Shown here: positions 4,452-19,515 of the stretch, piece by piece
How the letters are laid out: each line of letters begins with the position of its first letter
How positions within the stretch are numbered: the first letter of the stretch is position 1
Assembly: GCA_958295805.1 (NCBI GenBank)
Contig: OY282373.1
Location: forward strand, 1,025,001 to 1,089,000
Direction: 5' to 3'
From: an uncultured Nitrospirales bacterium
GTDB lineage: Bacteria; Nitrospirota; Nitrospiria; Nitrospirales; UBA8639
Length of the DNA stretch: 64,000 nucleotides
Translations under genes and position numbers: made by a program
Notes under the pieces: model-generated
Databases searched by the model: none
What the model was told of the DNA's origin: nothing
Seen by the model: only the letters and a program-made list of their open reading frames with translations

Positions 4452-5468
4452 ATGGCCGTTCCTTTTTCGCAGATGGTCACGGTTGCCGGTTACGTCATCT
4501 CCCAAAAATTCAAGGGCGTGAAGCGTTATCCGCTCGTGTTGATGTTGGAGCCGATCTTCCGCTGCAATTTGGCTTGTGCCGGATGTGGAAAAATCCAATA
4601 TCCCGATCACGTGTTGGATCGACGGTTGACGCCGGAACAATGTTGGGCGGCGGCGGAAGAATGTGGTGCTCCGATTGTGAGCATTCCAGGCGGGGAGCCG
4701 CTCATTCATCCGGAGATGGCGGACATCGTGCGAGGCTTGGTGCAGCGAAAAAAGTACGTGTACGTGTGTACGAACGCGATTCTCTTGGAACGAAAAATTA
4801 ATGAATATCAGCCGTCCAAATATTTGACCTTCAGCATTCACATGGACGGGTTGCGAGAGGAACATGATCGTGCCGTCTGTCGCAATGGGGTGTATGACGT
4901 CGCGGTGAAGGCAATCAAGACCGCGCTCTCCAAAGGATTCCGCGTGAACACCAACACCACACTGTTCAACGATGCCCACCCGCAACGCGTGCGAGCCTTT
5001 TTTGATAAAATGATGGAACTAGGCGTTGAGGGCATGATGATCTCTCCAGGGTATAGTTATGAAAAGGCCCCGGATCAAAACGGGTTTTTGCAGCGGCACC
5101 GCACCCGCGAATTGTTTACCAAACTCCTCACCGAGCGAAAGCGCGGCTGGCAATTCAACCAATCTCCCCTGTTTTTAGAATTTTTAATGGGCAAACGCGA
5201 TTATCAATGCACGCCCTGGGGAAATCCCACCTATAATATATTCGGCTGGCAAAAACCGTGTTACCTCCTGCAGGATGAATCCATCTCGAGTTTCAATGCC
5301 TTGCTTGAAGAGACGAACTGGGAGCAGTATGGAGTCGGGCGAAATGAAAAATGCAAGGACTGCATGGTGCATTGCGGGTACGAAGCCTCGGCCATTGAAG
5401 AAACGTTCGGTTCCTGGTCCGGGTTTGCACAAACGGTCAAAACCATGCTGTTTCCCAACGCGACGTGA
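4452..5468 (+). CDS. hpnH: Adenosyl-hopene transferase, radical SAM protein HpnH
   Basis: 338 residues. HpnH joins a 5'-deoxyadenosyl group to diploptene, the first step toward C35 bacteriohopanepolyols. The radical SAM cluster motif CNLACAGC (Cys38, 42, 45) follows LEPIFR, and there is a GGEP motif near residue 79. The C-terminal SPASM-like stretch contains KCKDCMVHCGYEAS. The sequence is collinear with the family over its whole length. It has its own promoter and is followed 100 bp later by a conserved-looking small gene. No squalene-hopene cyclase is visible in the window, so other hopanoid genes must lie elsewhere. Confidence 0.93.
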   Translation: MAVPFSQMVTVAGYVISQKFKGVKRYPLVLMLEPIFRCNLACAGCGKIQYPDHVLDRRLTPEQCWAAAEECGAPIVSIPGGEPLIHPEMADIVRGLVQRKKYVYVCTNAILLERKINEYQPSKYLTFSIHMDGLREEHDRAVCRNGVYDVAVKAIKTALSKGFRVNTNTTLFNDAHPQRVRAFFDKMMELGVEGMMISPGYSYEKAPDQNGFLQRHRTRELFTKLLTERKRGWQFNQSPLFLEFLMGKRDYQCTPWGNPTYNIFGWQKPCYLLQDESISSFNALLEETNWEQYGVGRNEKCKDCMVHCGYEASAIEETFGSWSGFAQTVKTMLFPNAT

Positions 5469-5521
5469 GTTGGGTCTCCCTTCGAGAGCGGAGTAGATAG
5501 AAGGACGGGAACATCTGTAGT

Positions 5522-5538
5522 GCCGCATCTCATGCGGC
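5522..5538 (+). other. Short perfect hairpin downstream of hpnH
   Basis: GCCGCAT-CTC-ATGCGGC forms a 7-bp stem with a 3-base loop between hpnH and the next gene. No T-run follows, so it is not a typical intrinsic terminator. It may stabilise or separate the two coding segments. Confidence 0.5.
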
Positions 5539-5569
5539 CAGAACCAGAGCGGCCAGCGAACGGTAGACC

Positions 5570-5953
5570 ATGATCGAAGAATCTCTCCACGTGTCTGAAG
5601 AGACGACGAAACGTCCTGCTGAGGATGGCCTCCAAGGGGCGGAGTTTCGTCCCACCTCCCGTGCGGAACTGATGAACGTCGTCAACTTGGCGTTTAATTA
5701 CCGGGGTGACGTCACGCTGGAACTGAAGTCCCAAGAGACCGTCACCGGATATATTTTCAATCGGGTGCCTGACGTGCCTCATCCTTACCTCGAACTGTTC
5801 CCTTTGAATCATCCCGACCCCCGAACCATTGCCTATGACGACGTTCAGGTCATTCGGTTTACCGGCGATGATACAGCCTCGGGAAAATCCTGGGAAACCT
5901 GGATGCAGAAAAAACAGGAAGAAAAGAATACCCTGCCTCCAAAAAGTCCGTGA
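5570..5953 (+). CDS. Conserved-looking small protein of unknown function
   Basis: 127 residues, no signal peptide or membrane segment. The N-terminal 30 residues are polar. Residues 32-100 look like a compact beta-rich domain (NLAFNYRGDVTLEL, TVTGYIFNRV, IAYDDVQVIRFTGDD) suggestive of a small SH3/Sm-like barrel. The C-terminus is a basic tail (WMQKKQEEKNT). I do not recognise a named family. It follows hpnH on the same strand after 101 bp containing a short hairpin, so it may be co-transcribed with it, but nothing in it points to hopanoid chemistry. Confidence 0.7.
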   Translation: MIEESLHVSEETTKRPAEDGLQGAEFRPTSRAELMNVVNLAFNYRGDVTLELKSQETVTGYIFNRVPDVPHPYLELFPLNHPDPRTIAYDDVQVIRFTGDDTASGKSWETWMQKKQEEKNTLPPKSP

Positions 5954-5984
5954 CGCGCTTTCTTGAATCAGACAATGCCTCCCC

Positions 5985-6095
5985 ATCCCTCATTTGTCAT
6001 CCTGCCCCTCCCGTCATCCTGCCCCCTTTCATCATCCCGCCCTTTCTCGTCATCCTGTCCCCTCTTGTCATCCTGAACGAAGTGAAGGATCTGCT
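5985..6095 (+). repeat. Degenerate tandem array ending in a GTCATCCTGA...GAAGGATC element
   Basis: Five imperfect units starting GTCATCCTG or CATCATCCCG, spaced about 17-20 bp and separated by pyrimidine-rich spacers. The last unit continues into AACGAAGTGAAGGATCTGC. Related copies of the final element lie at 18175-18350 and 19771-19805. It fills most of the 240-bp gap before the next small gene. Confidence 0.7.
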
Positions 6096-6195
6096 TCTTC
6101 ATAAATGCCCCCAAAGGGTAAGGTGAGTATTGACTCCCGGTCCCGCTTGGGGTATTCTCCGCTACCTTTATCGGGGAGCAGCTGATGGAGTACCC

Positions 6196-6441
6196 ATGTT
6201 CATGAAACATAAGGGAGTTCCTGTCATGCCGCAGTCATGCTTTGGTTTGTTTTTCCGCCTCCCCTGCTTCACGCTTGTCGTCTTGGCAAGCATCCTTTTC
6301 GTCCCAACCCTCACATCCGCCAAAGAAACCGATCAAGATACGCGAGTGGCGCATCCTTTGGATGCCAGCAAGCTCTTCCGCTGGTGTCTGGATCGGGTAG
6401 AAGACACGGATTTATTGAGCCGATTAATTGCTGATTGCTAA
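6196..6441 (+). CDS. Small secreted protein of unknown function
   Basis: About 81 residues from ATG 6196, which has GGAG about 5 bases upstream. A hydrophobic segment (LPCFTLVVLASILFVPTL) ending at TSA/KE looks like a signal peptide, leaving a mature chain of roughly 40 residues with two Cys. The upstream in-frame extension (from TTG 6130) is unlikely to be translated. It lies just before the respiratory cluster but shows no haem motif. No family recognised. Confidence 0.5.
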   Translation: MFMKHKGVPVMPQSCFGLFFRLPCFTLVVLASILFVPTLTSAKETDQDTRVAHPLDASKLFRWCLDRVEDTDLLSRLIADC

Positions 6442-6498
6442 ACATATATATTCACCGGATTCACCTTGATTCTGTCACGTTAAAAAAGGGGTTTTTTT

Positions 6499-7095
6499 AT
6501 GGAGCGTAGAGAGAAGTGGATAAACCGAGAGACGTGGGGGATTATTGCCGTGGTGGCGATGGGATTGACGGTCTCAGCTTGTGGGGAGGCCAAGCCGCCG
6601 GCTCCGCCGCCTCCGGCGCCGCCGGAATATGCGGATAAGCACATGCCTGAGGGTTATTGGAATAATCCCGAGATTCTTGAGCAAGGGAAAGCCATCTTTA
6701 CGGGTGAGGAAAACATCGACGTGAATTGCGCCAGTTGTCATGGGAAGGATGGAAAGCCGGTGAAAGCCGGGGCACGAGATTTTCGTCAGGGTGAGCACAT
6801 GAAGTTGTTCTCTGATTCTCAATGGTTCTGGCGCGTGTCTGAAGGGGTGAAAGGCACCAAAATGAAAGCCTGGAAATCCAAGCTTCCTGAGGAGGACCGG
6901 TGGAAAGTGATTGCTTATGAAGCGACGTTCGGCCTGAAAGGGATGGAATACAGCGTTGCTCAAAAGAAATGGGTGCCTCAAGGAACGGCCGCGGCTCCGG
7001 CGGCTTCGGGTGGGGCCGGGAGTGAGGCTCCAGCAGAGCCGCCTGTGGACGGGGAACCTGCCGGGAAGGGAACTTCTGAAGAAACTCCGCAGTAA
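6499..7095 (+). CDS. Lipoprotein monohaem cytochrome c
   Basis: 198 residues. The N-terminal lipoprotein signal ends in a lipobox (TVSAC, Cys28), followed by a Pro/Ala-rich tether (APPPPAPP). A class I cytochrome c domain has CASCH (Cys77, Cys80, His81), and a downstream Met in KGTKMKAW is the likely sixth ligand. The C-terminal 45 residues are Ala/Pro/Gly-rich and low complexity. It should be anchored on the periplasmic face and pass electrons to or from the cytochrome bd-like and bc-type proteins encoded next. A GGGG-rich ribosome-binding region (TTAAAAAAGGGG) precedes ATG 6499. First gene of a co-oriented respiratory block reaching 18110. Confidence 0.88.
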   Translation: MERREKWINRETWGIIAVVAMGLTVSACGEAKPPAPPPPAPPEYADKHMPEGYWNNPEILEQGKAIFTGEENIDVNCASCHGKDGKPVKAGARDFRQGEHMKLFSDSQWFWRVSEGVKGTKMKAWKSKLPEEDRWKVIAYEATFGLKGMEYSVAQKKWVPQGTAAAPAASGGAGSEAPAEPPVDGEPAGKGTSEETPQ

Positions 7096-7110
7096 CGGGG
7101 CCGTATAAAC

Positions 7111-7316
7111 GTTGACTGGTCATATGACAAAAGAAGACTTTTGCAAAAGTGAATGATTGTGCCCCGCCACTCACCGGTCAGATGCGTGGAGCACCACTTC
7201 TGGATTCCCGCTCCCCGATAACAAATGTCGGGGACAGGTTTCGCGGGAAGGACAAAAGGGAAACGGGAATGACGGTTGTGCAAAGGTCTCTTGACTGGTG
7301 AGATGACAAAAGGAGG
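7111..7316 (+). repeat. Direct repeats flanking a palindromic intergenic element
   Basis: Two near-identical segments, TTGACTGGTCATATGACAAA (about 7112) and TTGACTGGTGAGATGACAAA (about 7291), lie 180 bp apart. Between them sits a palindromic element running from CTGGATTCCCGC (7199) to CGGGAATGACGG (about 7273), with an inner CCCCGA/TCGGGG hairpin. The element belongs to the family also seen at 44802, 49287 and 60255. It occupies the whole gap between the first cytochrome and the first CydA-like gene. Confidence 0.65.
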
Positions 7317-7326
7317 GCTACGATCC

Positions 7327-9039
7327 TTGAACGTTTCAACCCGCAGTCTTGTTATTGTTCTCGGACTTGTGCTGGGGGGGGCCGCTCTTGCCTCGGCGCA
7401 GGTTCCGCCTGCTCCCCCTGCTGAATTTCCGTATACCGGGAATCGGACGGCGGTGTGGATCGTGGCCCAGCTCCATATTTTGTTCGCGGCCTTTATTCTG
7501 GGCGCCCCGATTTTTGCCGTGGTTTCGGAATGGCTGGGCTATAAAAACCAGGACCCGAAGTATGATCGATTGGCCAAGGAAGTCACCAAAGTCACGGTGA
7601 TCTTATATAGTATGACGGCGTTGACCGGCGGCCTGTTTATTTTTGTACTGCTGGCGACCTATCCCGACTTCACGACTTGGCTCATCAAGCATTTCTTCCT
7701 GATTTTCGCCCTGGTGTATCCGCTCCTGTTCATCCTCGAAACGATTGTGCTGTACCTGTATTTTTACTCCTGGGATTCCCTGAAGGGGGAAAAGAAAGCG
7801 CGCCATATTGCTTTGGGCGTTCTCCTGAACGTTATTGGAACCGTGACCTTGTTTGTCATTGACGGGCCGACTTCATTCATGAATACCCCGGCCAAGGCCG
7901 CGGAAGGAGTCTCGATTTTCGAGTACATCCAAACCGCGGGCCTCTGGGATAAGATTGCCAATTATAGTTGGATGCCGCTGAATCTGCATCGACTGGTCGG
8001 CAACGTCACCTTCGGCGGGTTTATTGCCGGACTGATTGCGGCCTATATGTACATGGGCGCCAAGTCGGATGAGGAACGCTCGTATTATGATTGGATGGGA
8101 TTCGTGGGAAATCTGATCGGCGTCGGGGCGCTTCTGCTTCTGCCGTTCATGGGGTATCTGCTGGCGTATGAACTGTGTGACTACGATGCGTCGATTTGTC
8201 CGTACATGATGGCCGACCAGCTTTCGATGTTTTTTGAAATGCAGGGCGCCATGGTTGGGCTGATCTTCCTGGCCAGCAACTATTACATCTGGCTGAGTAT
8301 GAAACGGATTCAGGGCGTGGAGCAGGTTCGGATCTCCGGCATGGTCATGATCGCGGTGATCCTGATTCCGGCGGTCATGTCCGTGGCCTGGAAACTGTTC
8401 CCACCGCCGGAATGGCAATCGCTGATCTTCCTGGCGTTGCTGATCGTGCTTCCGCCAATCTTGAGCAGGCTTCCGGGTTTGCGATTTACCGTGTCGTCGT
8501 TCACCATGATCAAGGTCGGATTTTTGATGATTGTGGTGGCCAACGCCATCTGGATGACGCCGCATGGATTCGTGGCGACGCAGGCGTTGGCCACGGAAGA
8601 GTTGGAATTACCGTCCTGGGCCAGCGAATTGGCGCTGATGCCGGCGAAAAACGCGGCCGCGTTTACGTTGGTCTTTCTGACCATCGTCAATTATATTCTC
8701 TATAATCGGGCCATTCGGAGCGGAACCATTATCTGGGGGAAAATCGATTTCACGTCCCAGTTCGTTTTGATCTTCCTGGCCTTCAGTGCGATCTGGACGA
8801 TGGGCCTGATGGGCACGGTCCGGTCGCTTACGAGAAAGTATTACCACGTGTATAACCTGATGCCGGACTTTACCGCGGAATCGTTTACGCCGACATTGGC
8901 CTATTCCGCCTGGTGGATTACGGGTGTCACCTTGCTTTTTTATCTGGTGGTGAGTTTTGCCATCGTGGTGACGTTAGGGGGCGGCGGCCAGAAGACGGAG
9001 GCTCCGCAAGGCACCCCGGTGCCCGCGGGTGCGAAGTAA
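7327..9039 (+). CDS. Cytochrome bd oxidase subunit I-like membrane protein (CydA-like 1)
   Basis: About 570 residues, larger than E. coli CydA (about 520). An N-terminal signal-like segment is followed by some 14 predicted membrane helices. Candidate haem-b ligands are His50 (IVAQLHILFAAF) and His221 (LNLHRLVGNVTFGG), placed like the CydA b595 and b558 histidines. The GRQPW quinol-loop motif is not present, and no CydB gene is nearby. Such stand-alone CydA-like proteins are known from Nitrospira, where one was proposed as terminal oxidase. Whether this copy reduces O2 or only moves electrons cannot be told from sequence. I chose TTG 7327 because GGAGG (7311-7315) precedes it; ATG 7303 is the alternative. 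The stop is 17 bp before the next cytochrome gene. Confidence 0.82.
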   Translation: MNVSTRSLVIVLGLVLGGAALASAQVPPAPPAEFPYTGNRTAVWIVAQLHILFAAFILGAPIFAVVSEWLGYKNQDPKYDRLAKEVTKVTVILYSMTALTGGLFIFVLLATYPDFTTWLIKHFFLIFALVYPLLFILETIVLYLYFYSWDSLKGEKKARHIALGVLLNVIGTVTLFVIDGPTSFMNTPAKAAEGVSIFEYIQTAGLWDKIANYSWMPLNLHRLVGNVTFGGFIAGLIAAYMYMGAKSDEERSYYDWMGFVGNLIGVGALLLLPFMGYLLAYELCDYDASICPYMMADQLSMFFEMQGAMVGLIFLASNYYIWLSMKRIQGVEQVRISGMVMIAVILIPAVMSVAWKLFPPPEWQSLIFLALLIVLPPILSRLPGLRFTVSSFTMIKVGFLMIVVANAIWMTPHGFVATQALATEELELPSWASELALMPAKNAAAFTLVFLTIVNYILYNRAIRSGTIIWGKIDFTSQFVLIFLAFSAIWTMGLMGTVRSLTRKYYHVYNLMPDFTAESFTPTLAYSAWWITGVTLLFYLVVSFAIVVTLGGGGQKTEAPQGTPVPAGAK

Positions 9040-9056
9040 CGGAGGGGACAGCGAGT

Positions 9057-9866
9057 ATGGCTGAGCAAAGTATGACGCGAAACATTCTGAAAAAGGGCGT
9101 GATCGGCGTGGTGGTGGGCATGGTGTTCGTCATAGTCGCCAAGGCCACTCACTTTCCTACGGTCTTCCAGGTGATGTTCTTTATTTACGCGATGCTTGGA
9201 GCCTTTGTGTTTATTCTGCTGGATGCGCCGTCCATGAACCGTCTGCAGGGCGGAAAGGCCATCGTCGGACTGATCTTGTTTTACCTCGTTCTTTCAGGCG
9301 TGTACATCGGCGGGGCGACAGGTCTGCCTCAATACGATCCGGAAATTGAAAAAGGCAAGATCGACAAAATCCTGAAGGCGCGTCGAGCCAGAACCCAACG
9401 GGGGAAAGCCGAAGAACTGATTGCCCGGGCCAAAGCCTTGAATGAACGGGCGGCGTCAATCGACGAACGATTAAAAGCCCTTGGTGGGGGAGCCCAGGTC
9501 GCGGTGGACGCGGAAGCCGTGCCGACCTCTCCTGCCGCGGCCGGTGATCTGGTTGCGCTTGGGAAAGAGCAATGGGAACTCCAGGAGTGTTACAACTGCC
9601 ATAAACTCTTCGGTAAAGGGGGGAAGAAACGGGGACCGGAATTAGATAACATCGGCAATCTGATGACACCCGAAGCCCTGCGGCAAAAAATTCTCAGCCC
9701 CAAAAGCTGGATGGCGGAAGGATTTGAAAAGCAGTACAAGAAGGGTAAAATGCCCAACAAATATAAAGATTTGATGTTTGACGAAGAGGTCGACGCGCTC
9801 GTGGCCTTTTTGGCGACGTTAAAAGATTCTTCGGTCAAGACCCCGAAACCTGTCAAGATGAATTAA
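9057..9866 (+). CDS. Membrane-anchored monohaem cytochrome c
   Basis: 269 residues. Three membrane helices (about 14-30, 36-56, 67-88) are followed by a charged, probably coiled-coil stretch (96-142). A periplasmic c-type domain carries CYNCH (Cys178, Cys181, His182), with MPNKY supplying a likely Met ligand. The frame is open further upstream, but ATG 9057 has GGAGGGG before it. Nested between the first CydA-like gene and the Rieske gene, it probably accepts electrons from the bc-type complex or feeds the bd-like protein. No close named family recognised beyond the cytochrome c domain. Confidence 0.87.
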   Translation: MAEQSMTRNILKKGVIGVVVGMVFVIVAKATHFPTVFQVMFFIYAMLGAFVFILLDAPSMNRLQGGKAIVGLILFYLVLSGVYIGGATGLPQYDPEIEKGKIDKILKARRARTQRGKAEELIARAKALNERAASIDERLKALGGGAQVAVDAEAVPTSPAAAGDLVALGKEQWELQECYNCHKLFGKGGKKRGPELDNIGNLMTPEALRQKILSPKSWMAEGFEKQYKKGKMPNKYKDLMFDEEVDALVAFLATLKDSSVKTPKPVKMN

Positions 9867-9892
9867 GTGCTCTCAGCGCGACTGCAGAACCC

Positions 9893-10837
9893 ATGCAACC
9901 GAAACTCACCGCAAAAACGCGATGCACCGACGGCGAAGTCGGAACGGTGTCCAAGGTCATCGTTGATCCGTTATCCCGTGAGATCAGTCACGTCGTCGTC
10001 AGGGAATCCAATGGGCAGGGAGCCGATCGACGGGTTCCGATCAGCCAGGTGCAGGCGGTCCCGAATGAAGAAGAAATTGTTTTAGGGTGTTCCTCTGAAG
10101 CATTCGGACAATTTCCCGTGCTGGATCGAGATGCCTACGTTACGATCCATGACGTAGAAATCGCCCATCTGGAGGATCATCTGCACGTGGAACCCGGTGA
10201 AATCCTCGTACCCTATCCACGGCTTGAACGCGGCGTCCCACGCCGACGGTTTTTTACGAACATGACGCACGCCATCGGCACGTTGATTGCGCTGCCACTG
10301 GTGTTCCCGGTTTTGAAATATCTGATGAAGCCCATGTATAAGCCCTTTGATAATTCGTGGTTTTCAATCGGCAACGTCCGCAAAATCAAAAAGGAAAACA
10401 TCGGGTACCAGTTCAAGTTTCAGAAGGGGTTTCAGGAAGCCTTCATGCCTGAGCAGCAGATTGAAAAAAATATCTGGGTGGTGAAGGCCACGCCGGAAGT
10501 CCAAAAAACCGTCTACGGAGGGAAAGATAAAAAGTTTTATGACCATAAGGGAAATTTGATCTGGATGAATAAAGCCACGTCTCCCTACATCGGCTATTCC
10601 GGAAAATGTCCGCATTTGGGATGCGGCTACAAGTGGAGACGGACGAAGAATTTCCCCGATGGCGTGTTTTTGTGTCCCTGCCATTTGAGCATCTATGATG
10701 AAGCCGGCAAAGTGCTGGATGGGCCGGCGCCGCGACCTCTTGACGTGTTGCCGATGCAGGTGAACGCGGCAGGGGAAGTGCAGGTCATTGACATTGAATA
10801 CAAAGCCGGAGTGAGAAACCAAGTCCGCCTTCTTTAA
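9893..10837 (+). CDS. Rieske iron-sulfur protein with N-terminal PRC-barrel-like domain
   Basis: 314 residues. Residues 1-100 have the beta-strand pattern of a PRC-barrel (CTDGEVGTVSKVIVDPLSRE... HVVVRE... RRVPISQVQAV). A membrane helix lies at about 126-146. The Rieske domain follows, with cluster ligands Cys239/His241 (CPHLGC) and Cys261/His264 (CPCH) and disulfide partners Cys244 and Cys263. It is the [2Fe-2S] subunit of a quinol:cytochrome c oxidoreductase and is followed 19 bp later by cytochrome b. The domain order is unusual: bacterial Rieske subunits normally start with a Tat signal and a single anchor helix. The PRC-like domain would sit on the cytoplasmic side if the helix is a simple anchor. 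Confidence 0.88.
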   Translation: MQPKLTAKTRCTDGEVGTVSKVIVDPLSREISHVVVRESNGQGADRRVPISQVQAVPNEEEIVLGCSSEAFGQFPVLDRDAYVTIHDVEIAHLEDHLHVEPGEILVPYPRLERGVPRRRFFTNMTHAIGTLIALPLVFPVLKYLMKPMYKPFDNSWFSIGNVRKIKKENIGYQFKFQKGFQEAFMPEQQIEKNIWVVKATPEVQKTVYGGKDKKFYDHKGNLIWMNKATSPYIGYSGKCPHLGCGYKWRRTKNFPDGVFLCPCHLSIYDEAGKVLDGPAPRPLDVLPMQVNAAGEVQVIDIEYKAGVRNQVRLL

Positions 10838-10856
10838 TTTTACCCATAAGCCTTTT

Positions 10857-11969
10857 ATGAACGGTCAATCCGAACCTGCCCACCAACCCAACGCGTTTGA
10901 GAAAGTCGTCGATTTCGTTGATGAACGAGTCGGACTGAAAACGATTCAGGCCAAAATGTTGAATGAGCCCGTCCCGGGAGGGTCGCGCTGGGCGTATGCC
11001 TTTGGCTCGTGTCTGCTGTTCATTTTCATCATGCAGGTGGTGACCGGCATTCTTTTGATGTTCTACTACGTGCCAAGCACCGATCACGCGTATGCGAGCA
11101 CCCAATACATCATCCATGAAGTGGATTACGGCTGGTTTCTGCTGAGTTACCATTTCTGGGGATCGTCCGCCATGGTGGTGATGGTGTTTGCTCATATGTC
11201 GCAGGTGTTCTTATGGGGTGCGTACAAGAAACCCCGTGAACTGGTTTGGTTGGTGGGACTGGCCCTTTTCGGACTGGTTATGGCGTTCGGGTTTACCGGC
11301 TATCTGCTCCCATGGGACCAACGGGCGTACTGGGCCACGGTGGTGGGAGTGGAAATCATGGATAAGACGCCGATCATCGGGGATTTCATGAGTCGCTTTT
11401 TGAAAGGGGGGCCGACGCCCGGACAAATGACCTTGAGTCGGTTTTTTGTCATTCACGTGATGATCCTGCCCGCGGCACTGATGGGGCTGGCGGGTCTCCA
11501 TCTGTTCTTATTCCGTAAAGCCGGCCCCGCCGGTCCGTTCAGAGGGACCCCTGAACAAATCAAAGCCAAGACGGATTATTTCTTTCCCCGACAAATCTGG
11601 AAGGATATCGTGGCCATGGCCTCGGTCTTCCTGATTATCTGCTCGTTGGCGTTCATTGAACCGGTGGTGTTGCTGGAAGAGGCGACGCCTGATCCCGGGG
11701 ATTATCATCCAGAACCGGAATGGTATTTTCTCTTTCTTTTCCAAATGTTGCGATTGAAGATTTTCGCGGGAGAGTTCGGGCAATTTCTCGGAGCCGTGGC
11801 CATCCCCGGAGCGTTTCTGGCGTTTCTGGCGGTGTTGCCCTTTCTTGACAAGAATCCTGAACGAAATATTTTTAAGCGACCGATTGCCTTGATAGGCTGG
11901 ATTGCCATTATGGCGGGCATTTTGATTTTTACCGTCTCGGCGGTTCTGAACAGAGAGTTCTTGCATTAA
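10857..11969 (+). CDS. Cytochrome b of a bc-type complex (b6/subunit IV fused)
   Basis: 370 residues, one chain covering both the haem-bearing N-terminal half and the subunit IV-like half. Haem ligand pairs are His99/His113 (spacing 14) and His200/His215 (spacing 15). The extra residue in the second pair is the cytochrome b6 pattern rather than mitochondrial or proteobacterial cytochrome b. The Qo-site motif PEWYF is at 287-291. Eight membrane helices are expected. It follows the Rieske gene by 19 bp, and the next gene starts immediately after the stop codon. There is no separate cytochrome c1 gene, so one of the neighbouring membrane cytochromes c probably takes that role. Confidence 0.94.
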   Translation: MNGQSEPAHQPNAFEKVVDFVDERVGLKTIQAKMLNEPVPGGSRWAYAFGSCLLFIFIMQVVTGILLMFYYVPSTDHAYASTQYIIHEVDYGWFLLSYHFWGSSAMVVMVFAHMSQVFLWGAYKKPRELVWLVGLALFGLVMAFGFTGYLLPWDQRAYWATVVGVEIMDKTPIIGDFMSRFLKGGPTPGQMTLSRFFVIHVMILPAALMGLAGLHLFLFRKAGPAGPFRGTPEQIKAKTDYFFPRQIWKDIVAMASVFLIICSLAFIEPVVLLEEATPDPGDYHPEPEWYFLFLFQMLRLKIFAGEFGQFLGAVAIPGAFLAFLAVLPFLDKNPERNIFKRPIALIGWIAIMAGILIFTVSAVLNREFLH

Positions 11970-11975
11970 GTGCGT

Positions 11976-12836
11976 ATGTCGAACGCCAAACTGGGTCTCT
12001 TAGTTTTCTGGCCGACCTTCTGGACGGGCTTCCCCATAAAGATGGTCATCGCGTTGCTGTTGTTGGCGGCCCACGTCCATCCCTGGGAAGGTACCGGCCT
12101 CCAAGCCTTGTTGCTCCTTTCCGTGCCCGTGGACATCTGGGCTTTGGGGCTCTGCACGCGAACCGTCTTGCTGGAACGGCTCAACGTCGACCCGCCCAAA
12201 GGGACGGGGCTTCGCTTGTGGGGATATTGGGCCGCGTTTTCGGTGGTCTATCTTCCTCTGTTGTCGTTCGTCGTCAGCGGAGTCAAAGCCCTGACGCTAT
12301 CCGCAACCGAGGCGACCATTCATTTTGTTGAAGAAAGTATCGTCGCAATTCCCATTGCCGAAAAAATCAGTCTGGAGTTGGTAATGTGGGGCACACCGAC
12401 CACCATTGTGCTCATCGTCTTGCTCTACGGCTGGTTGTGGGGGTTGGGCGCCATGGCGCAGCGCTTCGTGCGTGCGGCGACCTCCGTTGACGGCACGTTC
12501 CAGGATATCGTATGCAGATGGGATTTCCTGCGGATACCCAAAGATCAACCATTGGTGTTGACGGCCTTTACCGGCACGGGCGTGGTCCTGGTGTTGGTGT
12601 TCTGGGGATTGATTCCCGTGAGTACCCCGCATCCGCATGAAGAATATGAGTTTGTTCACGTGCAAAAGGTGGAAGAGAAGATCGTTCCCAAAGACGTCAT
12701 GAAACGGGCAGAGCAGACCCTGGCTCGCGCGGAAGCCACGTTAAAAGAATTGGAAACGGACAAGCCGGCAGGTGAACGGCCCAAAGAGGAAACCAGTGCC
12801 CCGACCAAAACGGTCGAAGAAGAGTCGAAACCTTAG
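11976..12836 (+). CDS. Membrane protein of the bc/bd cluster, unknown function
   Basis: About 286 residues from ATG 11976; GTG 11970, directly after the cytochrome b stop, is an alternative. About five hydrophobic segments (near 10-32, 40-55, 75-98, 130-155, 195-215) are followed by a soluble C-terminus of 70 residues. That tail is rich in Lys and Glu and probably forms a coiled coil. No haem c motif or recognised domain. Its place between cytochrome b and the second CydA-like gene, with no spacing, argues that it is a structural or linker subunit of the same complex. Confidence 0.75.
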   Translation: MSNAKLGLLVFWPTFWTGFPIKMVIALLLLAAHVHPWEGTGLQALLLLSVPVDIWALGLCTRTVLLERLNVDPPKGTGLRLWGYWAAFSVVYLPLLSFVVSGVKALTLSATEATIHFVEESIVAIPIAEKISLELVMWGTPTTIVLIVLLYGWLWGLGAMAQRFVRAATSVDGTFQDIVCRWDFLRIPKDQPLVLTAFTGTGVVLVLVFWGLIPVSTPHPHEEYEFVHVQKVEEKIVPKDVMKRAEQTLARAEATLKELETDKPAGERPKEETSAPTKTVEEESKP

Positions 12837-12871
12837 CCTTAACAGGATCATAGACACCGGTGAGGACCCCC

Positions 12872-14749
12872 ATGAAAAACCCCGGCACAATTGAAACGCG
12901 ACATTCCTGGTTGCCAAAGGTGAAACCAGCCTCCCTCTTCGGGTGGAGCGTTGTGTGGACCCTTCTCCTTCTGCCGGCGTGCGTCTGGGCTCAAGATGCC
13001 GCGACACAAGCCATGTCCGTGGAGTATCGAGACATTCCCGGACTCGGCAGCCGGAACGTGATCTGGGTCATTGCTCAACAGCATCTCCTCCTTGCCGGAT
13101 TCGTGCTTGGCGTGCCGATCTTTGCCTGGGTCTGTGAGATTGTCGGATGGAAGACCAAAGAAGCCCGGTATGACACCCTCGCCAAAGAATTTACCAAGCT
13201 GTTGACGTCGGCCTATGCAACCACGGCCCTGTTCGGCGGCATTCTTCTCTTCCTCCTGATCGGCCTGTATCCCAAACTCATGGCGTACCTCTCCGACGTC
13301 TTTTTCCCGTCCTTCATTCTCTACTGCATCCTGTTTCTCCTGGAAACCGTGACCCTCTATTTGTACTGGTACGGGTGGGACGCGATGCAGGGGAATAAAA
13401 AAGGGTTCCACCTCTTCCTTGGGTTTTTGCTCAACCTGTTTGCCTTGGGAATCATGATCGTGCCCAATGCGTGGGCCACCTTCCAAGCCAGTCCGGTGGT
13501 GGTTGCAGATGGGACGGCGATTGATCGGGCGTGGGCTGCAACGTGGAATCCGACGTGGTGGCCGGTCAATATTCATCGCCTCATTGCCAACGTGGTGCTG
13601 GGCGGGTTTATTTGCGGGGCCTACGCGGGTATCCGGTATCTCCTGGCGGCCAGCCAGGCGGAACGCGAACATTACGATTGGATGGGCTACGTCGGAAATT
13701 TTATCGGCGTGTTCGGAATGCTCCCGCTGCCCTTTGCCGGATATTGGCTCATGCGGGAGATCTACCAATATAACCAGCAAATGGGCATTACCCTGATGGG
13801 AGGATTTTTAGCGTGGCTCTTTATCCTGCAGGCGATGCTCATCGGCGTGCTGTTCCTCGGAGCCAATTATTACTTCTGGATGGGGATTACGTATCGGATT
13901 CCCGGGTCGGAGCAGAGCTACAAACGGCCGATTCTGGCCATGCTCATTGTGCTCATGGTATGCCTCGGGGTCTGGATGACGCCCCACTCCCTGGTTGCCA
14001 GTCTGGAAGAGGCCAGAAAAATGGGAGGCACGCATCATCCGCTGCTGGGGGTTTTCGGGGTGATGTCCGCCAAAATGACGGTCGCCAATCTCATGATATT
14101 GGTCACCTTCATGAGTTTCATCATGTATTGGCGGGCCGGCAAGCAGGAAACAAGCGGGTGGGCGAAGATGGCCAAGGCGGTGATGGGCGCCTTACTGGTC
14201 ATCGCCGGCATTGCGGTCATTGTTCTGGGAGTGTGGGGGTATTTCGTCCCGGCCATTATTCGGATTAATTATTTCTCCGTGGCCCAGGTGTTGATCGTCC
14301 TGTTTATTATGATCACGTTCACGCCCTTGACCGCGGTGCTGATGAAAAGTGCCAAAACCATGACCGAAATGGTCTGGGGACGGATGCCGATCCGGGCGGC
14401 GTATTGCCTGGTGTCCAACGCCGTTATGGTCATCCTGCTCATGTCGTTGATGGGCTACGCCCGATCATCCTCTCGGGTGCATTGGCATGTCTACGGGGTG
14501 ATGCGGGATACCTCGGACTATGCCTATTCGCCGGCCCTGGGCTATGCGGCTGCCTTCATGTCGCTCAATACCTTTGTTTTCTGTTTACTGGTGGCGTTCA
14601 TCTTCTGGGTCGCCACGATGGGCGACAAAGGGAAGAAAGGCCCGGAACGGGGTCAACCCGCCGAGGAACCGGCCAAGATCCCAATGGACGCGACGCCGGC
14701 CATGGCCGGCGGAGCACCGCGAGAGGGAGAAGCGACGCCGAAAGGGTAG
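12872..14749 (+). CDS. Cytochrome bd oxidase subunit I-like membrane protein (CydA-like 2)
   Basis: About 625 residues from ATG 12872. An N-terminal hydrophobic signal-like segment precedes some 14 helices. The candidate haem ligands His71 (VIAQQHLLLAGF) and His235 (PVNIHRLIANVVLGGF) align with those of CydA-like 1. Near the C-terminus the stretch SSRVHWHVYGVMRD resembles the CydA segment around the b558 Met better than the matching part of the first copy does (KYYHVYNLMPD). The C-terminal tail is charged and Pro/Ala-rich. No cydB gene accompanies it. The pair probably arose by duplication and then diverged. Confidence 0.83.
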   Translation: MKNPGTIETRHSWLPKVKPASLFGWSVVWTLLLLPACVWAQDAATQAMSVEYRDIPGLGSRNVIWVIAQQHLLLAGFVLGVPIFAWVCEIVGWKTKEARYDTLAKEFTKLLTSAYATTALFGGILLFLLIGLYPKLMAYLSDVFFPSFILYCILFLLETVTLYLYWYGWDAMQGNKKGFHLFLGFLLNLFALGIMIVPNAWATFQASPVVVADGTAIDRAWAATWNPTWWPVNIHRLIANVVLGGFICGAYAGIRYLLAASQAEREHYDWMGYVGNFIGVFGMLPLPFAGYWLMREIYQYNQQMGITLMGGFLAWLFILQAMLIGVLFLGANYYFWMGITYRIPGSEQSYKRPILAMLIVLMVCLGVWMTPHSLVASLEEARKMGGTHHPLLGVFGVMSAKMTVANLMILVTFMSFIMYWRAGKQETSGWAKMAKAVMGALLVIAGIAVIVLGVWGYFVPAIIRINYFSVAQVLIVLFIMITFTPLTAVLMKSAKTMTEMVWGRMPIRAAYCLVSNAVMVILLMSLMGYARSSSRVHWHVYGVMRDTSDYAYSPALGYAAAFMSLNTFVFCLLVAFIFWVATMGDKGKKGPERGQPAEEPAKIPMDATPAMAGGAPREGEATPKG

Positions 14750-14797
14750 GCATGAAGAATGAGTGCCAATGGCAGTCTTTAACCTGAGCGAGGAGAC

Positions 14798-15400
14798 ATG
14801 AGCGAGGTTGCGTTACTCCAATTGATCGGTCTCACCGTCGTAGGATGCGGGATCCTGATCCTGCTGTTCATCACGTCAAAATTTCTCAGGGTCGTGGGCT
14901 TTGTGGTCATCGTCTTGGGGACGTTTACCTTGATTGCCTTGGGTGTCCCGCAAATGCCCTCTCTGCCCCCGGCGATTGAAACCTTCGACATTGCCAAGGT
15001 CAAAACACCGGACGACTTGGCGTCGATCGGTCAGAAGATTTTCTTCAGCAAAGGCCAATGTGCGCTGTGTCATTCCATCGGTCCCAGCGAATCCGCTCGA
15101 TGCCCGGATTTGAAAGGCATCGGGGCCAAGCTCGCGCCCGAGTTTATCTATGAAAGCCTTACCGAGCCTCAAGCCTATATTTATCTGGACTTCAGGCATG
15201 AAGGCCTGCCCAAGGAATATCCGGCTCGTATGCCACACATCAACAAGAATCCGATTGCCTTGTCCAAGCAGGAGATTTATTCGGTGATCGCGTTTCTCCA
15301 GAAAATGAGCGGCGAACCCATTAGCGTCAAAGTCGAAGACGTCCTTGGAGTCGGCGAAGAGGGTGACGTGAAAGTCGCCTCCGTCCATGGAGCCTACTAA
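14798..15400 (+). CDS. Membrane-anchored monohaem cytochrome c
   Basis: 200 residues with two N-terminal membrane helices (about 5-26 and 31-50) and a c-type domain with CALCH (Cys88, Cys91, His92). A Met in ARMPHINKN is the likely axial ligand. An extra Cys (Cys102 region, SARCPDLKG) is present. It starts 48 bp after CydA-like 2 and has GAGGAG before its ATG. Probably an electron carrier of the same respiratory assembly. Confidence 0.86.
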   Translation: MSEVALLQLIGLTVVGCGILILLFITSKFLRVVGFVVIVLGTFTLIALGVPQMPSLPPAIETFDIAKVKTPDDLASIGQKIFFSKGQCALCHSIGPSESARCPDLKGIGAKLAPEFIYESLTEPQAYIYLDFRHEGLPKEYPARMPHINKNPIALSKQEIYSVIAFLQKMSGEPISVKVEDVLGVGEEGDVKVASVHGAY

Positions 15401-15415
15401 CCAGGAGAGTGCTGC

Positions 15416-16141
15416 ATGAAAGGCCCCCTTGCGCAAACGGGAATCTTGTTGGTGGGAATGTACGTGTTTCTGAAATTCATTCTGCCGTTGTTTACCGCGC
15501 CGCTGCCGGCAAGTCTCATCTTTTTATACTTGGCGCTGACGGTCGCCGCGGCGATGATTTTCTATACTATGAGCGGCGCAGGTCTTGAAGAGTTCATGGG
15601 ACCCATCGGGAGGTTCCTGACGGGAGAAGGGCAGAAGGGCGTGGCCACGACGGCCCGCGTTATGGTGTTCATGCTGTTCCCGTTGTTGGTGGGATGGCAA
15701 ACGTACACGAAATTGGCCCCGAGCGACGTGCCGCCTCCTGAAAATCGAACGATTCATCCCGCGCCTCCCGGCGAATTTGTCGGATTGTCCAATCCATTTC
15801 AGAAAACGCAGGAAAATATCATGATGGGGAAAGGGCTCTACGCGGCGTTTTGTTCACCCTGTCATGGAGCCAATTTTGACGGGAAAGGCCCGGCGTCCGT
15901 GGGCTTTAATCCTCCTCCGGCGAATTTCGGTGATCCGGGAACGATTGCGCAGTTGCAGGAATCCTATCTGTTCTGGCGAATCAAAAAAGGCGGGGTAGGG
16001 CTTCCGGTGGAAGGGATGCCGTGGAAGTCCGCCATGCCGCGCTGGGAAGTGGAATTGCCGGACGAGTGGATTTGGAAAATTATCATGGGTGAATACGACG
16101 GCGCGGGCCAATCGCCGCGGACGTGGGAAGAAGAGGAATAG
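15416..16141 (+). CDS. Membrane-anchored monohaem cytochrome c
   Basis: 241 residues. Hydrophobic segments lie near 8-28, 33-52 and 81-98. The C-terminal c-type domain has CSPCH (Cys146, Cys149, His150) and MPWKSAMPRW, where Met residues may ligate the haem. CAGGAGAG upstream supports ATG 15416. It lies 15 bp after the preceding cytochrome gene. Confidence 0.86.
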   Translation: MKGPLAQTGILLVGMYVFLKFILPLFTAPLPASLIFLYLALTVAAAMIFYTMSGAGLEEFMGPIGRFLTGEGQKGVATTARVMVFMLFPLLVGWQTYTKLAPSDVPPPENRTIHPAPPGEFVGLSNPFQKTQENIMMGKGLYAAFCSPCHGANFDGKGPASVGFNPPPANFGDPGTIAQLQESYLFWRIKKGGVGLPVEGMPWKSAMPRWEVELPDEWIWKIIMGEYDGAGQSPRTWEEEE

Positions 16142-16191
16142 GAGCGCTGCAAACGGCGAAACAAGGAGTGGAGCAGCCAAGGAGCATGACA

Positions 16192-17028
16192 ATGGGACGG
16201 AAGACACTTATCAACGTCACGCTGGGAACCATCCTGATGACGGCGGGATTCGGTGCCGCCTGGGCTGTGGCGAGCGATCCGCCTCCTGACGGTGAAACCA
16301 GCAGTGTGGCCGTTCGGTTGTATCTGACCGAGGGATCACTTCCCACGGATGATCTGAATGCCGCGGCGTGGAACTCGATTCAGCCTTCGGAGTTCAAGTT
16401 GGCACCTCAGGTCCATTGGCCTGACCGGATTCAAGAGGTTACGGTGAAATCCGTCAAGGTGCGCGGGATGCACAACGGACGAGACCTCGCCGTCATGCTG
16501 GAATACGACGACCCGTCGGAAGACGTTGCTGATGCCGCTGCTCTGGAATTTATGGTTGGAGACCAAAAAGCCCACTTCGCTCATGGTCAGGGAATGCTGC
16601 AAGTTGAAGGCGGGCCGGTCAACATCTGGTACTGGAAAAAAGAAAACGGCAAGGCCACGGACATGAGTGCCAAAGGATTCAAAACCCTTCGGGCACAAGA
16701 ACGGCAGGATGTCTCGGCAACCGGAGCTTGGCAGGACGGAACGTGGCGGGTCGTCTTTTCTCGACCACTCCAAACCGGTGATGAAGCAGACGTGCAAATC
16801 ACGCCCGGTGAATGGAGAAACGTGGCGTTTGCCTTTTGGGACGGTCAACTCGTTGACGGCGTAGAAAAGGAAAAAGGTTCACAGAAAGCCGTGTCGTCCT
16901 GGTGGTACATCCGGGCTGAGCCTCAGCCGGACAACTCCATTTATGGATACGTCGTCTTAGGCATTGCGATTGCTGCCGGCTTTGAATTTTTCCTGGTGCG
17001 AAAAATCCGAAAAGGTAACCAAGCATGA
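16192..17028 (+). CDS. Haem-b-binding gamma-subunit-like protein (NxrC/EbdC family) with C-terminal anchor
   Basis: 278 residues. A signal peptide (about 1-22) is followed by a beta-rich domain matching the ethylbenzene dehydrogenase gamma-type haem-b domain. Features are VAVRLYLTEG near the start, a central LAVMLEYDDPSED, VNIWYWKK, and a late TWRVVFSRPL and EWRNVAFAFWDG. A single C-terminal membrane helix (about 252-270) ends in a basic tail. The family normally passes electrons out of periplasmic molybdoenzymes such as nitrite oxidoreductase; here it is linked to bc/bd genes instead. ATG 16192 is better spaced from GGAG (7 bp) than ATG 16186. Its stop overlaps a possible ATG of the next gene (ATGA). 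Confidence 0.78.
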   Translation: MGRKTLINVTLGTILMTAGFGAAWAVASDPPPDGETSSVAVRLYLTEGSLPTDDLNAAAWNSIQPSEFKLAPQVHWPDRIQEVTVKSVKVRGMHNGRDLAVMLEYDDPSEDVADAAALEFMVGDQKAHFAHGQGMLQVEGGPVNIWYWKKENGKATDMSAKGFKTLRAQERQDVSATGAWQDGTWRVVFSRPLQTGDEADVQITPGEWRNVAFAFWDGQLVDGVEKEKGSQKAVSSWWYIRAEPQPDNSIYGYVVLGIAIAAGFEFFLVRKIRKGNQA

Positions 17029-17042
17029 AGGGGGAGCCATAC

Positions 17043-18110
17043 ATGCCGCGGGGACTGGTCATGGTCGCAATGGTGGGGATCGTCACGTTGGCGGTGACGA
17101 GCGGATGCGCCCTGTTTGAAGACGAAAAAACTGCCAAGGGCCGAAAACTCTATCGTCATTACTGCATGCATTGTCACGGTGAAACAGGACAACAGGCAGA
17201 AGGCTTTAATTGGGAGCGCATGCCGGACCCTCGTCCTCGTGATCTCTCGGAAACCGCGGCCATGTCCACCTTTTCCGATGAGGAAATTTTCAACACGATT
17301 TCTCGGGACATGAGAGACACCGCCTTGCAGGAAGTGCTGGATGATGAAAATTACTTTGCCGTGTCCACGATGCCGACCTTCAAATATACTCTGTCTGAGG
17401 AAGAACTCTGGGCCATCGTAAGCTACGTGCGAACGTTGCACGGGGGGGCGTTGGAGTTTGACGTTGAAGGACGAAGAGCCCAGTTGGAATCGGAGTTTCA
17501 GGCCGCGAAGGCAGAACACGACCAGGCCAGAACCGTGATGGATGAAGCCCTAGCGAAACAGGAAGCCGAAGAGTCTGCCCGGGCCGCCGCCGAAGAAGAC
17601 GCCGAAGATGACGACGATGAGGACGTGGAAGATGAAGATGAGGACATAGAAGAGGACATAGAAGAGGACGATGAGGAAGAAGAAATCCTGCTTCCCGAAG
17701 AAGAAGCCTATGAACGAGCGTCTGAAAAGTTTGAAGCCGCCCAAACGGCTTGGGAAAATTTCTCAAAGCGTCCGAAGATGTCTCAAATCCGACGCCCTGA
17801 CCTTACCGCCGGTGAAGAACGGCAAAAACTTGGAGAAGAAGGGAAACGTCTGTATTACGATACCTATGGGTGCAACGGCTGTCACAGTATCGGAGATAGC
17901 GGTGGTCTGGTCGGTCCGGCCTTGGACCGTGCGGGCTTTCGTCTCAATGACACCTGGGTCTATCGCTGGATTCGGTATCCGCAGGGTATGAAAAAGCACA
18001 CCCGGATGCCGAATTTGGGGATCAACGATCATGACGCCAGAGCTGTGGTTGCCTATCTTGATACGTTACGGGCACCCAAGCCGGATAAACCCATCCCTCC
18101 GCTGGAATAA
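17043..18110 (+). CDS. Dihaem lipoprotein cytochrome c with a long acidic linker
   Basis: 355 residues from ATG 17043, which has GGGGGAG six bases upstream; ATG 17025 overlaps the previous stop but lacks a site. A lipoprotein signal ends at Cys22 (AVTSGC). The first haem domain has CMHCH (Cys41, Cys44, His45). A helical, then extremely acidic segment (about 165-225, almost all Asp and Glu) follows, and the second haem domain has CNGCH (Cys277, Cys280, His281) with KHTRMPNLG as a likely Met ligand. The negatively charged linker is unusual and may dock a positively charged soluble cytochrome. Last gene of the respiratory block. Confidence 0.87.
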   Translation: MPRGLVMVAMVGIVTLAVTSGCALFEDEKTAKGRKLYRHYCMHCHGETGQQAEGFNWERMPDPRPRDLSETAAMSTFSDEEIFNTISRDMRDTALQEVLDDENYFAVSTMPTFKYTLSEEELWAIVSYVRTLHGGALEFDVEGRRAQLESEFQAAKAEHDQARTVMDEALAKQEAEESARAAAEEDAEDDDDEDVEDEDEDIEEDIEEDDEEEEILLPEEEAYERASEKFEAAQTAWENFSKRPKMSQIRRPDLTAGEERQKLGEEGKRLYYDTYGCNGCHSIGDSGGLVGPALDRAGFRLNDTWVYRWIRYPQGMKKHTRMPNLGINDHDARAVVAYLDTLRAPKPDKPIPPLE

Positions 18111-18174
18111 CCCCTACAGACCTCGCAAACGTCTCTTTTCCTTCCCTCTCCCCCTGACGAGACTTTTGAAAAAA

Positions 18175-18440
18175 TTGTCATTCTGAGGAGCGAAGCGACG
18201 CCTGCCCTGAGGTTCCTCTGAGCCTCGAAGTGCCTCGAAGGGAAGAATCTCCAGTGTCGGTCTGTCCCACGACGGAGCCCTGAGATTCTTCGCTTCGCTC
18301 AGAATGACAATTCTTTGCTCAGGATGACAGTTCTTTGCTTAGGCTGACATGTTGCAAAGATATCCTCTGAGAAAGAGGGGCAAGCCCTTTTATCCTTCCC
18401 CCTTGAGGGAGAGGGTAGGGGGCAAAGGTCTCTAGCAAGC
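18175..18440 (+). repeat. Intergenic repeats between the respiratory block and ubiA
   Basis: An imperfect inverted repeat of about 136 bp has outer arms TTGTCATTCTGAG-G-AGCGAAGCG (18175) and CGCTTCGCTCAGAATGACAA (ending 18310), and inner arms GAAGAATCT/AGATTCTTC. It is followed by two tandem 20-bp units of the type TTCTTTGCTCAGGATGACA. At about 18375-18435 lies a separate GAGGGAGAGGGTAGGGGGC-type element. The rest of this roughly 410-bp gap shows no gene. Confidence 0.7.
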
Positions 18441-18520
18441 CGGAGATAAAGAGAACAAAAAGGCGGTGCCATCACGTGGCCTTTTCGTTTTTGAAGGAAA
18501 TCAAGCGGTTGGCATCGCCG

Positions 18521-19417
18521 TCACAACGTTCCGACCCAGATCCCTGCTAGAATCACAAGGCCGACGCCGACGTGGTGTTGAAACATGGCGAAGGCCTCAG
18601 AAGGAGATACTTCCCCTCGTAATCGCCAGACTTGTTGGCTGTAAAACCCCGCGACGCCGGCGAGCCCAACGTAAAATGTCGCGTTGAGATGCTCCAGCCA
18701 CCCTGCCGTTGCGAGAAGCCCCAGCATGACCAGTTCGAAGGTTCCAACGGCAATCCACACGTGGGAACTAAAGAGCAGAGCTGATGAATGCACGCCCACC
18801 CGCCGATCATCCTCACGGTCTTGCAGCGCGTAGACGGTATCGTAGGCCAAGGCCCAGCAAATGGTACAAGCAAAGAGCAGCCACGTTGCAGGGTCGAGTT
18901 GATTCCGAACCGCGGCCCAGGCCAGCACGGTTCCCCAACCGAAAGCCAGACCGAGAAAGAATTGAGGGGCAGAAAAGAATCGTTTCGTGAACGGGTAGAC
19001 CGTGGCCAATCCTAACGCGATGGGGCTGAGAACAACGGTCAGCGGATTGAGAAAAGCCAGAAGGCCAGCGGCGACAAACAAAAATCCGACAAGAAAAAGG
19101 ACGGCGTGAACGGGACGAAGCGTGCCACGGGCCAGAGGCCGCATTTTCGTGCGGGTGACTTGGCGATCAAACGAACGATCGGCTAAATCGTTGATAATGA
19201 CGCCCACGCTGCGCATGACAAAGGAGCCCACGACAAAAATGATGAGCAACGGCACGGAAGGCCGTCCCTTGGAGGCCAGGACCAAGGCCCACAAGGATGG
19301 AAGCATGAGCAAGAGGGTCCCCGTCTGATTGGAAAGCCTGATCAGAGCAGCAAAATCGGTCAACGAGGGCGTGTTTGATGCAGGAGACGAAGGGCCGGAA
19401 GAAACGGGAGGAGACAT
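18521..19417 (-). CDS. ubiA: UbiA-type polyprenyltransferase
   Basis: About 298 residues with eight or nine membrane helices. The two Asp-rich prenyl-diphosphate/Mg motifs are present: NDLADRSFD in helix 2-3 and YALQDREDD later. The second has the form typical of 4-hydroxybenzoate polyprenyltransferase, and RPLARG follows the first motif as in UbiA. It attaches a polyprenyl chain to an aromatic acid in quinone synthesis, or acts on a related acceptor. The frame extends to a TTG at 19453; ATG 19417 is preferred but has no strong ribosome-binding site. That upstream TTGACA may be a -35 element rather than coding. Confidence 0.88.
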   Translation of the reverse strand: MSPPVSSGPSSPASNTPSLTDFAALIRLSNQTGTLLLMLPSLWALVLASKGRPSVPLLIIFVVGSFVMRSVGVIINDLADRSFDRQVTRTKMRPLARGTLRPVHAVLFLVGFLFVAAGLLAFLNPLTVVLSPIALGLATVYPFTKRFFSAPQFFLGLAFGWGTVLAWAAVRNQLDPATWLLFACTICWALAYDTVYALQDREDDRRVGVHSSALLFSSHVWIAVGTFELVMLGLLATAGWLEHLNATFYVGLAGVAGFYSQQVWRLRGEVSPSEAFAMFQHHVGVGLVILAGIWVGTL

Positions 19418-19515
19418 CCATTGACGGTAGCGCAGAATAAAAAATGCTGTCAATCATTCAACCCGTGGCACCGGATGTGGGACGGCGACATGTATCTGAA
19501 CGTGAATGCGCTCAG

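Follow-up and report, generated by a model that had tools for sequence, protein, structure and literature searches.

Nitrospira is a globally important nitrifier, and since its first genome (2010) it has been a question how O2 is reduced there with no heme-copper oxidase. In N. moscoviensis, a highly expressed region comprising CIII_1, bd-like_1, bd-like_2 and alt_nxrC_1 was proposed in 2019 to form a III+IV supercomplex (PMC6606698; this and the other papers are cited here from excerpts of their text). Such a pair of CydA-like proteins has been named OR-N2 (NIDE0901-like) and OR-N1, and a CydAA' cytochrome c oxidase was suggested, citing Murali 2021 (PMC12342949, PMC10839748). An antiporter-bearing complex, TO_2, has been described as restricted to Candidatus (Ca.) Manganitrophaceae (PMC9040806). 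Here we analyse a block of eleven genes (g1 to g11) at positions 6499-18110 of a 64,000-nucleotide stretch, the window, from the genome of an uncultured Nitrospirales bacterium (GCA_958295805.1, contig OY282373.1). As such, the block is not new, having been described before in other Nitrospira. A first-pass annotation had stated that CydA-like proteins are known in this genus, and a matching set is published for N. moscoviensis (PMC6606698). What is new is a genome comparison that suggests three separable modules and points to g7 as the O2-reducing protein.

The block is most likely the segment by which a nitrite-oxidising Nitrospira relative passes electrons to oxygen. We read it as a quinol/cytochrome c/O2 respiratory assembly of three modules, in which g7 reduces O2 and g2 is its electron-transfer partner, and we regard this reading as evenly poised between right and wrong. 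In it, the O2 reductase is likely to be g7 (bd-like_2), with g2 probably a bd-fold partner. We favour these roles because the oxidase module stands without g2 elsewhere, and g2 is found next to molybdoenzymes with no g7 adjoining it; the division leans on gene neighbourhoods and conservation. The genes are as follows.

g1, 6499-7095, + strand: monohaem c-type cytochrome, possible lipoprotein (PF13442, 39 bits; CASCH; lipobox-like VSAC)
g2, 7327-9039, + strand: CydA-like protein, by position bd-like_1 / OR-N1 (PF01654, 63.0 bits; g2 clade by tree)
g3, 9057-9866, + strand: membrane-anchored monohaem cytochrome c (PF00034, 47 bits; CYNCH; anchor from hydropathy)
g4, 9893-10837, + strand: Rieske protein with an N-terminal PRC-barrel-like stretch below cut-off (PF00355, 30 bits; CPHLGC, CPCH)
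g5, 10857-11969, + strand: one-piece b6-type cytochrome b (PF00033, 173 bits; PF00032, 36 bits; PEWY at 287)
g6, 11970-12836, + strand: membrane protein with about five transmembrane (TM) helices and a C-terminal TPHPHE motif (no Pfam or NCBIfam match)
g7, 12860-14749, + strand: CydA-like protein, by position bd-like_2 / NIDE0901-like / OR-N2, candidate O2-reducing subunit (PF01654, 64.7 bits)
g8, 14798-15400, + strand: membrane-anchored monohaem cytochrome c; some relatives have it as a fusion with g7 (PF00034, 33.5 bits)
g9, 15416-16141, + strand: membrane-anchored monohaem cytochrome c (PF13442, 30.5 bits; CSPCH)
g10, 16186-17028, + strand: haem-b gamma-like protein with a C-terminal TM helix, in the alt_NxrC_1 position (PF09459, 80 bits; TIGR03477, 103.6 bits, below cut-off)
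g11, 17025-18110, + strand: dihaem cytochrome c (two Cytochrome_CBB3 stretches; CMHCH, CNGCH)

All open reading frames (ORFs) of the eleven-gene block drawn by the first-pass annotation are present, consecutive and on the + strand, and its five c-type cytochromes with six haems c agree with six CXXCH motifs in five proteins (one each in g1, g3, g8 and g9, two in g11). Pfam matches over curated cut-offs were cytochrome c domains in these five proteins, Cyt_bd_oxida_I (g2, g7), Rieske (g4), Cytochrome_B with Cytochrom_B_C (g5) and EB_dh (g10). Gene order was compared in 80 loci, those among 309 with the most similar cytochrome b, and the set is therefore weighted towards close relatives; the count excludes 27 of them, whose contigs were too short. 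All eleven genes stand in order on one strand in 53 of the 53 loci with enough contig, far beyond chance. The annotation had itself named a comparison of synteny among its checks and scattering in close relatives among its refutations; within Nitrospirales no scattering of the genes was found, and content and order are inherited together. Two Nitrospinota-labelled metagenome-assembled genomes (MAGs; L023, L041) hold the block at Nitrospirales-like identity and are possibly mislabelled bins. The g6 gene occurs in 58 of 198 phylum genomes (all 56 sampled Nitrospirales and two class-level relatives), and 57 of the 58 also have g2 and g7 next to it on one contig; in the remaining genome it lies at the end of a contig. 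Because of this distribution, g6 would be a dedicated subunit or an assembly factor.

Parts of the block do separate in more distant Nitrospirota. A g7-type gene without g2 or g6 is found in five class-level genomes (G139, G159, G175, G181, G183), where g8-, g9-, g11- and gamma-like genes join it in most of the fetched contigs; the presence lists comprise rows of at least 58% (g7) or at least 60% (g2) identity, and G012, at 48%, and G049, truncated by the end of its contig, fall outside them and were treated separately. Away from the block, g2-clade genes stand with g1- and/or g3-like cytochromes in G054 and G049 (one family) and in G012, the G049 contig ending inside g2. All three contigs (L121, L122, L123) also carry the alpha subunit of a molybdopterin oxidoreductase and a 4Fe-4S beta subunit, together with a TorD-like chaperone (by Pfam in G054 and G012, read from a similar ORF in G049). 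The two alpha subunits beside the g2-clade genes are only 27% identical and therefore belong to two different molybdoenzymes. Trees were quick ones with support from the Shimodaira-Hasegawa-like approximate likelihood ratio test (SH-aLRT); in them the proteins of the three contigs fall in the g2 clade (SH-aLRT 100), the row L050_g2, a misassigned copy of L050 g7, being ignored. Because its parts occur apart in distant Nitrospirota, the block resembles several modules brought together, and their standing side by side is by itself no proof of a single complex. The supercomplex suggested by the annotation fits the strict synteny and is in print for N. moscoviensis (PMC6606698), but its modules come apart in more distant Nitrospirota.

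Both g2 and g7 score above the PF01654 gathering score (26.2). The duplicated CydA-like subunits announced by the annotation are indeed two CydA-like proteins, but no recent duplication: they are about 37% identical and form old paralogue clades. AlphaFold2 was applied among the block proteins to g7 and g6 only. The g7 model (42 rows; predicted local distance difference test, pLDDT, 79.4; predicted TM-score, pTM, 0.78) has the CydA fold (against 6rx4_A: Z 34.0, root-mean-square deviation (rmsd) 3.7, 351 aligned) and also resembles subunits of alternative complex III (ACIII; Z 23.6, rmsd 3.5, 318 aligned). The equivalent of E. coli His19, which we take to be a haem ligand, is kept in all 66 g2 and all 74 g7 rows of the alignment. 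A helix-5 motif holds a His, equally invariant (66/66 and 74/74), that matches by eye E. coli His186, presumably the haem b558 ligand, although MAFFT put His186 elsewhere. Five His are invariant across both proteins. To these g7 adds His392 and His393 (74/74) and His271 and His541 (73/74), where nearly all 66 g2 rows have other residues; His392/393 and His541 are absent from every g2 row. We dropped the His392/393/541 set as exclusive to g7, since some cydA4-like proteins of distant genomes carry it. At the Q-loop columns (Lys252 and Glu257, which we assume to be quinol residues) no conserved Lys/Glu pair was seen in an alignment that is unreliable there, and the MAFFT mapping of E. coli ligands past helix 5 was not used as evidence. 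The Q-loop quinol residues are stated to be absent from bd-like proteins (PMC3578206).

Several observations weigh against these roles for g7 and g2, which themselves come from computation. Outside the block, g1-g2-g3 is found on three contigs from two lineages only. Equivalents of His19 and Glu107, and the invariant His of helix 5, are present in g2 too, which could therefore bind haem and O2. The cydA4-like proteins of distant genomes (L109, L110) also carry extra g7-type His, and in one g7 (L098) residue 541 is Tyr. Sequence similarity between the g7 family and solved CydA spans residues 64-260 only, and because of this limit the equivalents of Glu445 and Met393, presumably ligands in E. 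coli, cannot be placed reliably; they are not conserved in the MAFFT alignment, which is unreliable past helix 5. Finally, a second bd-like locus in the same genome could also reduce O2.

On the reading that we favour, the middle module M2 (Rieske protein g4, b6-type cytochrome b g5 and g6) would perform the quinone-cytochrome c step, and M3 (g7 to g11) would be a bd-like cytochrome c oxidase. Electrons could reach M3 either from M2 or from nitrite, in the latter case by way of g10 (the haem-b protein) and periplasmic cytochromes, and they would run through the c haems of g8, g9 and g11 to g7 and on to O2. M1 (g1, g2, g3) may be a membrane unit of bd fold that transfers electrons and has two cytochromes of its own; it probably links a periplasmic molybdoenzyme, here nitrite oxidoreductase (NXR), and M2 to M3 rather than reducing O2. 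We infer this path, a catalytic g7, a non-catalytic g2 and any physical association between them. With the module evidence, bd-like_1 and bd-like_2 can each be given a distinct role that is open to testing, in place of the single question of which copy reduces O2.

The source genome is complete (one contig, 2.9 Mb, 99.85%). Searches of the whole genome gave no match to PF00115 (COX1) or to PF03916 (NrfD-type ActC/ActF), and the "no CydB" of the annotation extends beyond the block, with no PF02322 match genome-wide and hence no CydB partner of the quinol-type bd oxidases. As these searches were empty, a heme-copper oxidase, CydAB or ACIII elsewhere in the genome was discarded. The single genome-wide Cytochrome_B match is g5. 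Four CydA-like genes are present, two in the block and two in a second bd-like locus (L005; G000:C1:1216000-1233000, 4631-16405), which also encodes two cytochromes c, one dihaem and one monohaem, besides a dihaem-cytochrome/gamma fusion, and resembles the published bd-like_3/bd-like_4/alt_nxrC_2 cluster. The genome thereby brings the O2 question down to a small form: a single complex III, two bd-like loci and neither a COX1 nor a CydB oxidase. In the genus sample, a COX1 match was found in one of 14 genomes, CydB in none of the 14, and a single cytochrome b in 13. In the order sample, incomplete MAGs included, COX1 and CydB were both missing from 44 of 117 genomes at E <= 0.001, and from 52 of 117 when the curated cut-offs were applied. 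A 1147-aa NxrA-like protein is encoded elsewhere in the genome; its family score is below cut-off and the name NxrA is our own reading.

A wider role for M1 can also be put forward, although we consider it rather unlikely: g1-g2-g3 may be a general bd-fold membrane electron-transfer module for molybdoenzymes, in place of an NrfD/PsrC-type anchor, and bd-like_1 no oxygen reductase. NrfD is the usual membrane anchor in such enzymes, and no NrfD-like gene was seen beside the g2-clade and molybdoenzyme genes among the listed ORFs, judged by eye without a profile. If true, g1-g2-g3 would serve two different molybdopterin enzymes in distant Nitrospirota and would be joined in Nitrospirales to the Rieske/cytochrome b pair and the bd-like oxidase, so that a single assembly would let periplasmic NXR feed O2 reduction as well as the reduction of quinone by reverse flow.

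The model in print, in which g2 (OR-N1) and g7 (OR-N2) would make up one obligatory heterodimeric cytochrome c:O2 reductase with CydA' replacing CydB (PMC12342949, PMC10839748), agrees with the constant presence and nearness of both genes in Nitrospirales (the 57 of 58 genomes and 53 of 53 loci above). We find it doubtful as an obligatory arrangement, since g7-type proteins occur without a g2-clade protein in the five genomes named above, whose listed completeness is 94-99%, and g2-clade proteins occur on molybdoenzyme contigs without g7, at the level of contigs and not of whole genomes. The five genomes may, however, use another CydA paralogue as partner. Equally tentative is the idea that the genes are co-regulated and encode separate complexes connected by diffusible cytochromes: complex III, a bd-like oxidase and a unit of g1-g2-g3. 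The modules do occur apart elsewhere, and all fusions seen stay within a module (g7-g8, and g3-g1 in L122), none joining M2 to M3; nevertheless, the strict order across Nitrospirales, and the occurrence of g6 only together with g2 and g7, suggest contact. That the block serves mainly reverse electron flow from nitrite to quinone, which nitrite oxidisers require for CO2 fixation (PMC6606698, PMC3578206), while L005, with its two CydA-like genes, cytochromes and gamma-like fusion, reduces O2, is very improbable, given that relatives of L005 occur in anammox bacteria, which are anaerobes (PMC6606698, PMC3578206), and that its copies in this genome have no equivalents of His392 and His541.

As for the remaining genes, g4 and g5 carry the features of cytochrome bc/b6f complexes: in g5 the haem-ligand His pairs are H99/H113 and H200/H215, at a spacing that we take to be b6-type, with PEWY present, and in g4 both Rieske motifs are intact (CPHLGC for CxHxGC, CPCH for CxCH). 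The g10 protein falls short of the DMSO reductase type II gamma model (TIGR03477, 103.6 bits versus a cut-off of 169.85) and yet exceeds the PF09459 cut-off. Known subunits were discarded as an identity for g6, which has no Pfam, NCBIfam or PDB sequence match. Its AlphaFold2 model (pLDDT 79.8, pTM 0.59) gave no convincing structural match (none by Foldseek at E <= 0.001; best VIA Z 6.0 over 66 residues), although it may still have a known fold.

Spacing between block genes is at most 48 bases except between g1 and g2. The g2 ORF opens at 7276; its likely start is TTG at 7327, with an AGGAGG Shine-Dalgarno sequence at 7311-7316, and g3 starts at about 9057. The wide gap upstream of g2, the only one in the block, holds a near-identical pair of stretches (TTGACTGGT..ATGACAAAAG) at 7112-7135 and 7291-7314. 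Promoter and terminator scans of 6200-18700 were not clearly above shuffles (9 versus 7.0, standard deviation (sd) 2.9; 21 versus 15.2, sd 4.6). Adjoining the block on the - strand (18521-19453) is a UbiA-type 4-hydroxybenzoate prenyltransferase (TIGR01474 above cut-off), which may bear on the quinone used; upstream lies an HpnH adenosyl-hopene transferase (4452-5468, 543.9 bits).

Variants of the block bearing antiporters were found in Nitrospira sp. RSF151 (L050) and in a Rifle clade A genome (L052, the same genome as L105 and counted once). In both, g7 and g8 are fused inside the block, and two complex-I/Mrp-type antiporter subunits stand on opposite sides of the fusion (L050, 3865-9640; L052, 10518-16324). 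In L100-L104 such a pair likewise flanks the g7-type gene, and the pairs of L105 and L101 exceed the Proton_antipo_M cut-off. Antiporter matches were obtained in eight of 100 scanned loci, from six genomes. The g7 proteins of L050 and L052 form their own clade. No title or abstract that we found reports an antiporter-bearing complex in Nitrospira, and these variants suggest that the g7 slot can hold a possibly ion-pumping oxidase. A g7-g8 fusion without antiporter genes is also seen in L056 and L082 (frames of 799 and 813 aa).

Compared with known systems, the bd-like proteins of the block share with canonical CydAB the His19 and Glu107 equivalents and, in the predicted model of g7, the CydA fold, whereas the block has no CydB, the similarity is confined to the first five helices, and extra helices take the place of the Q-loop (PMC3578206 for bd-like proteins; our AlphaFold2 model for g7). 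With TO_2 of Ca. Manganitrophaceae (PMC9040806) the block shares a g7-type CydA-like protein accompanied by cytochromes and a gamma-like protein (L100, L101, L104, which we identify as TO_2 ourselves from their two antiporter-like genes). The TO_2-like loci differ by two MrpD-like antiporter subunits and the g7-g8 fusion; the block in the window has neither, and the two Nitrospira MAGs have both. The OR-N type CydAA' resembles it in having two CydA-like proteins, no CydB and conservation across Nitrospirales, the names OR-N1 and OR-N2 being given to g2 and g7 by position and literature (PMC12342949) and not from a tree with reference sequences. N. moscoviensis has in addition a second complex III and two CydAB oxidases (PMC6606698), whereas the source genome lacks CydB and carries only one cytochrome b. 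The N. moscoviensis region nevertheless shares with the block the Rieske protein, cytochrome b, two bd-like proteins, several cytochromes c and a gamma-like gene behind two cytochromes, and because of this gene order (PMC6606698) we equate g7 with bd-like_2 and g2 with bd-like_1.

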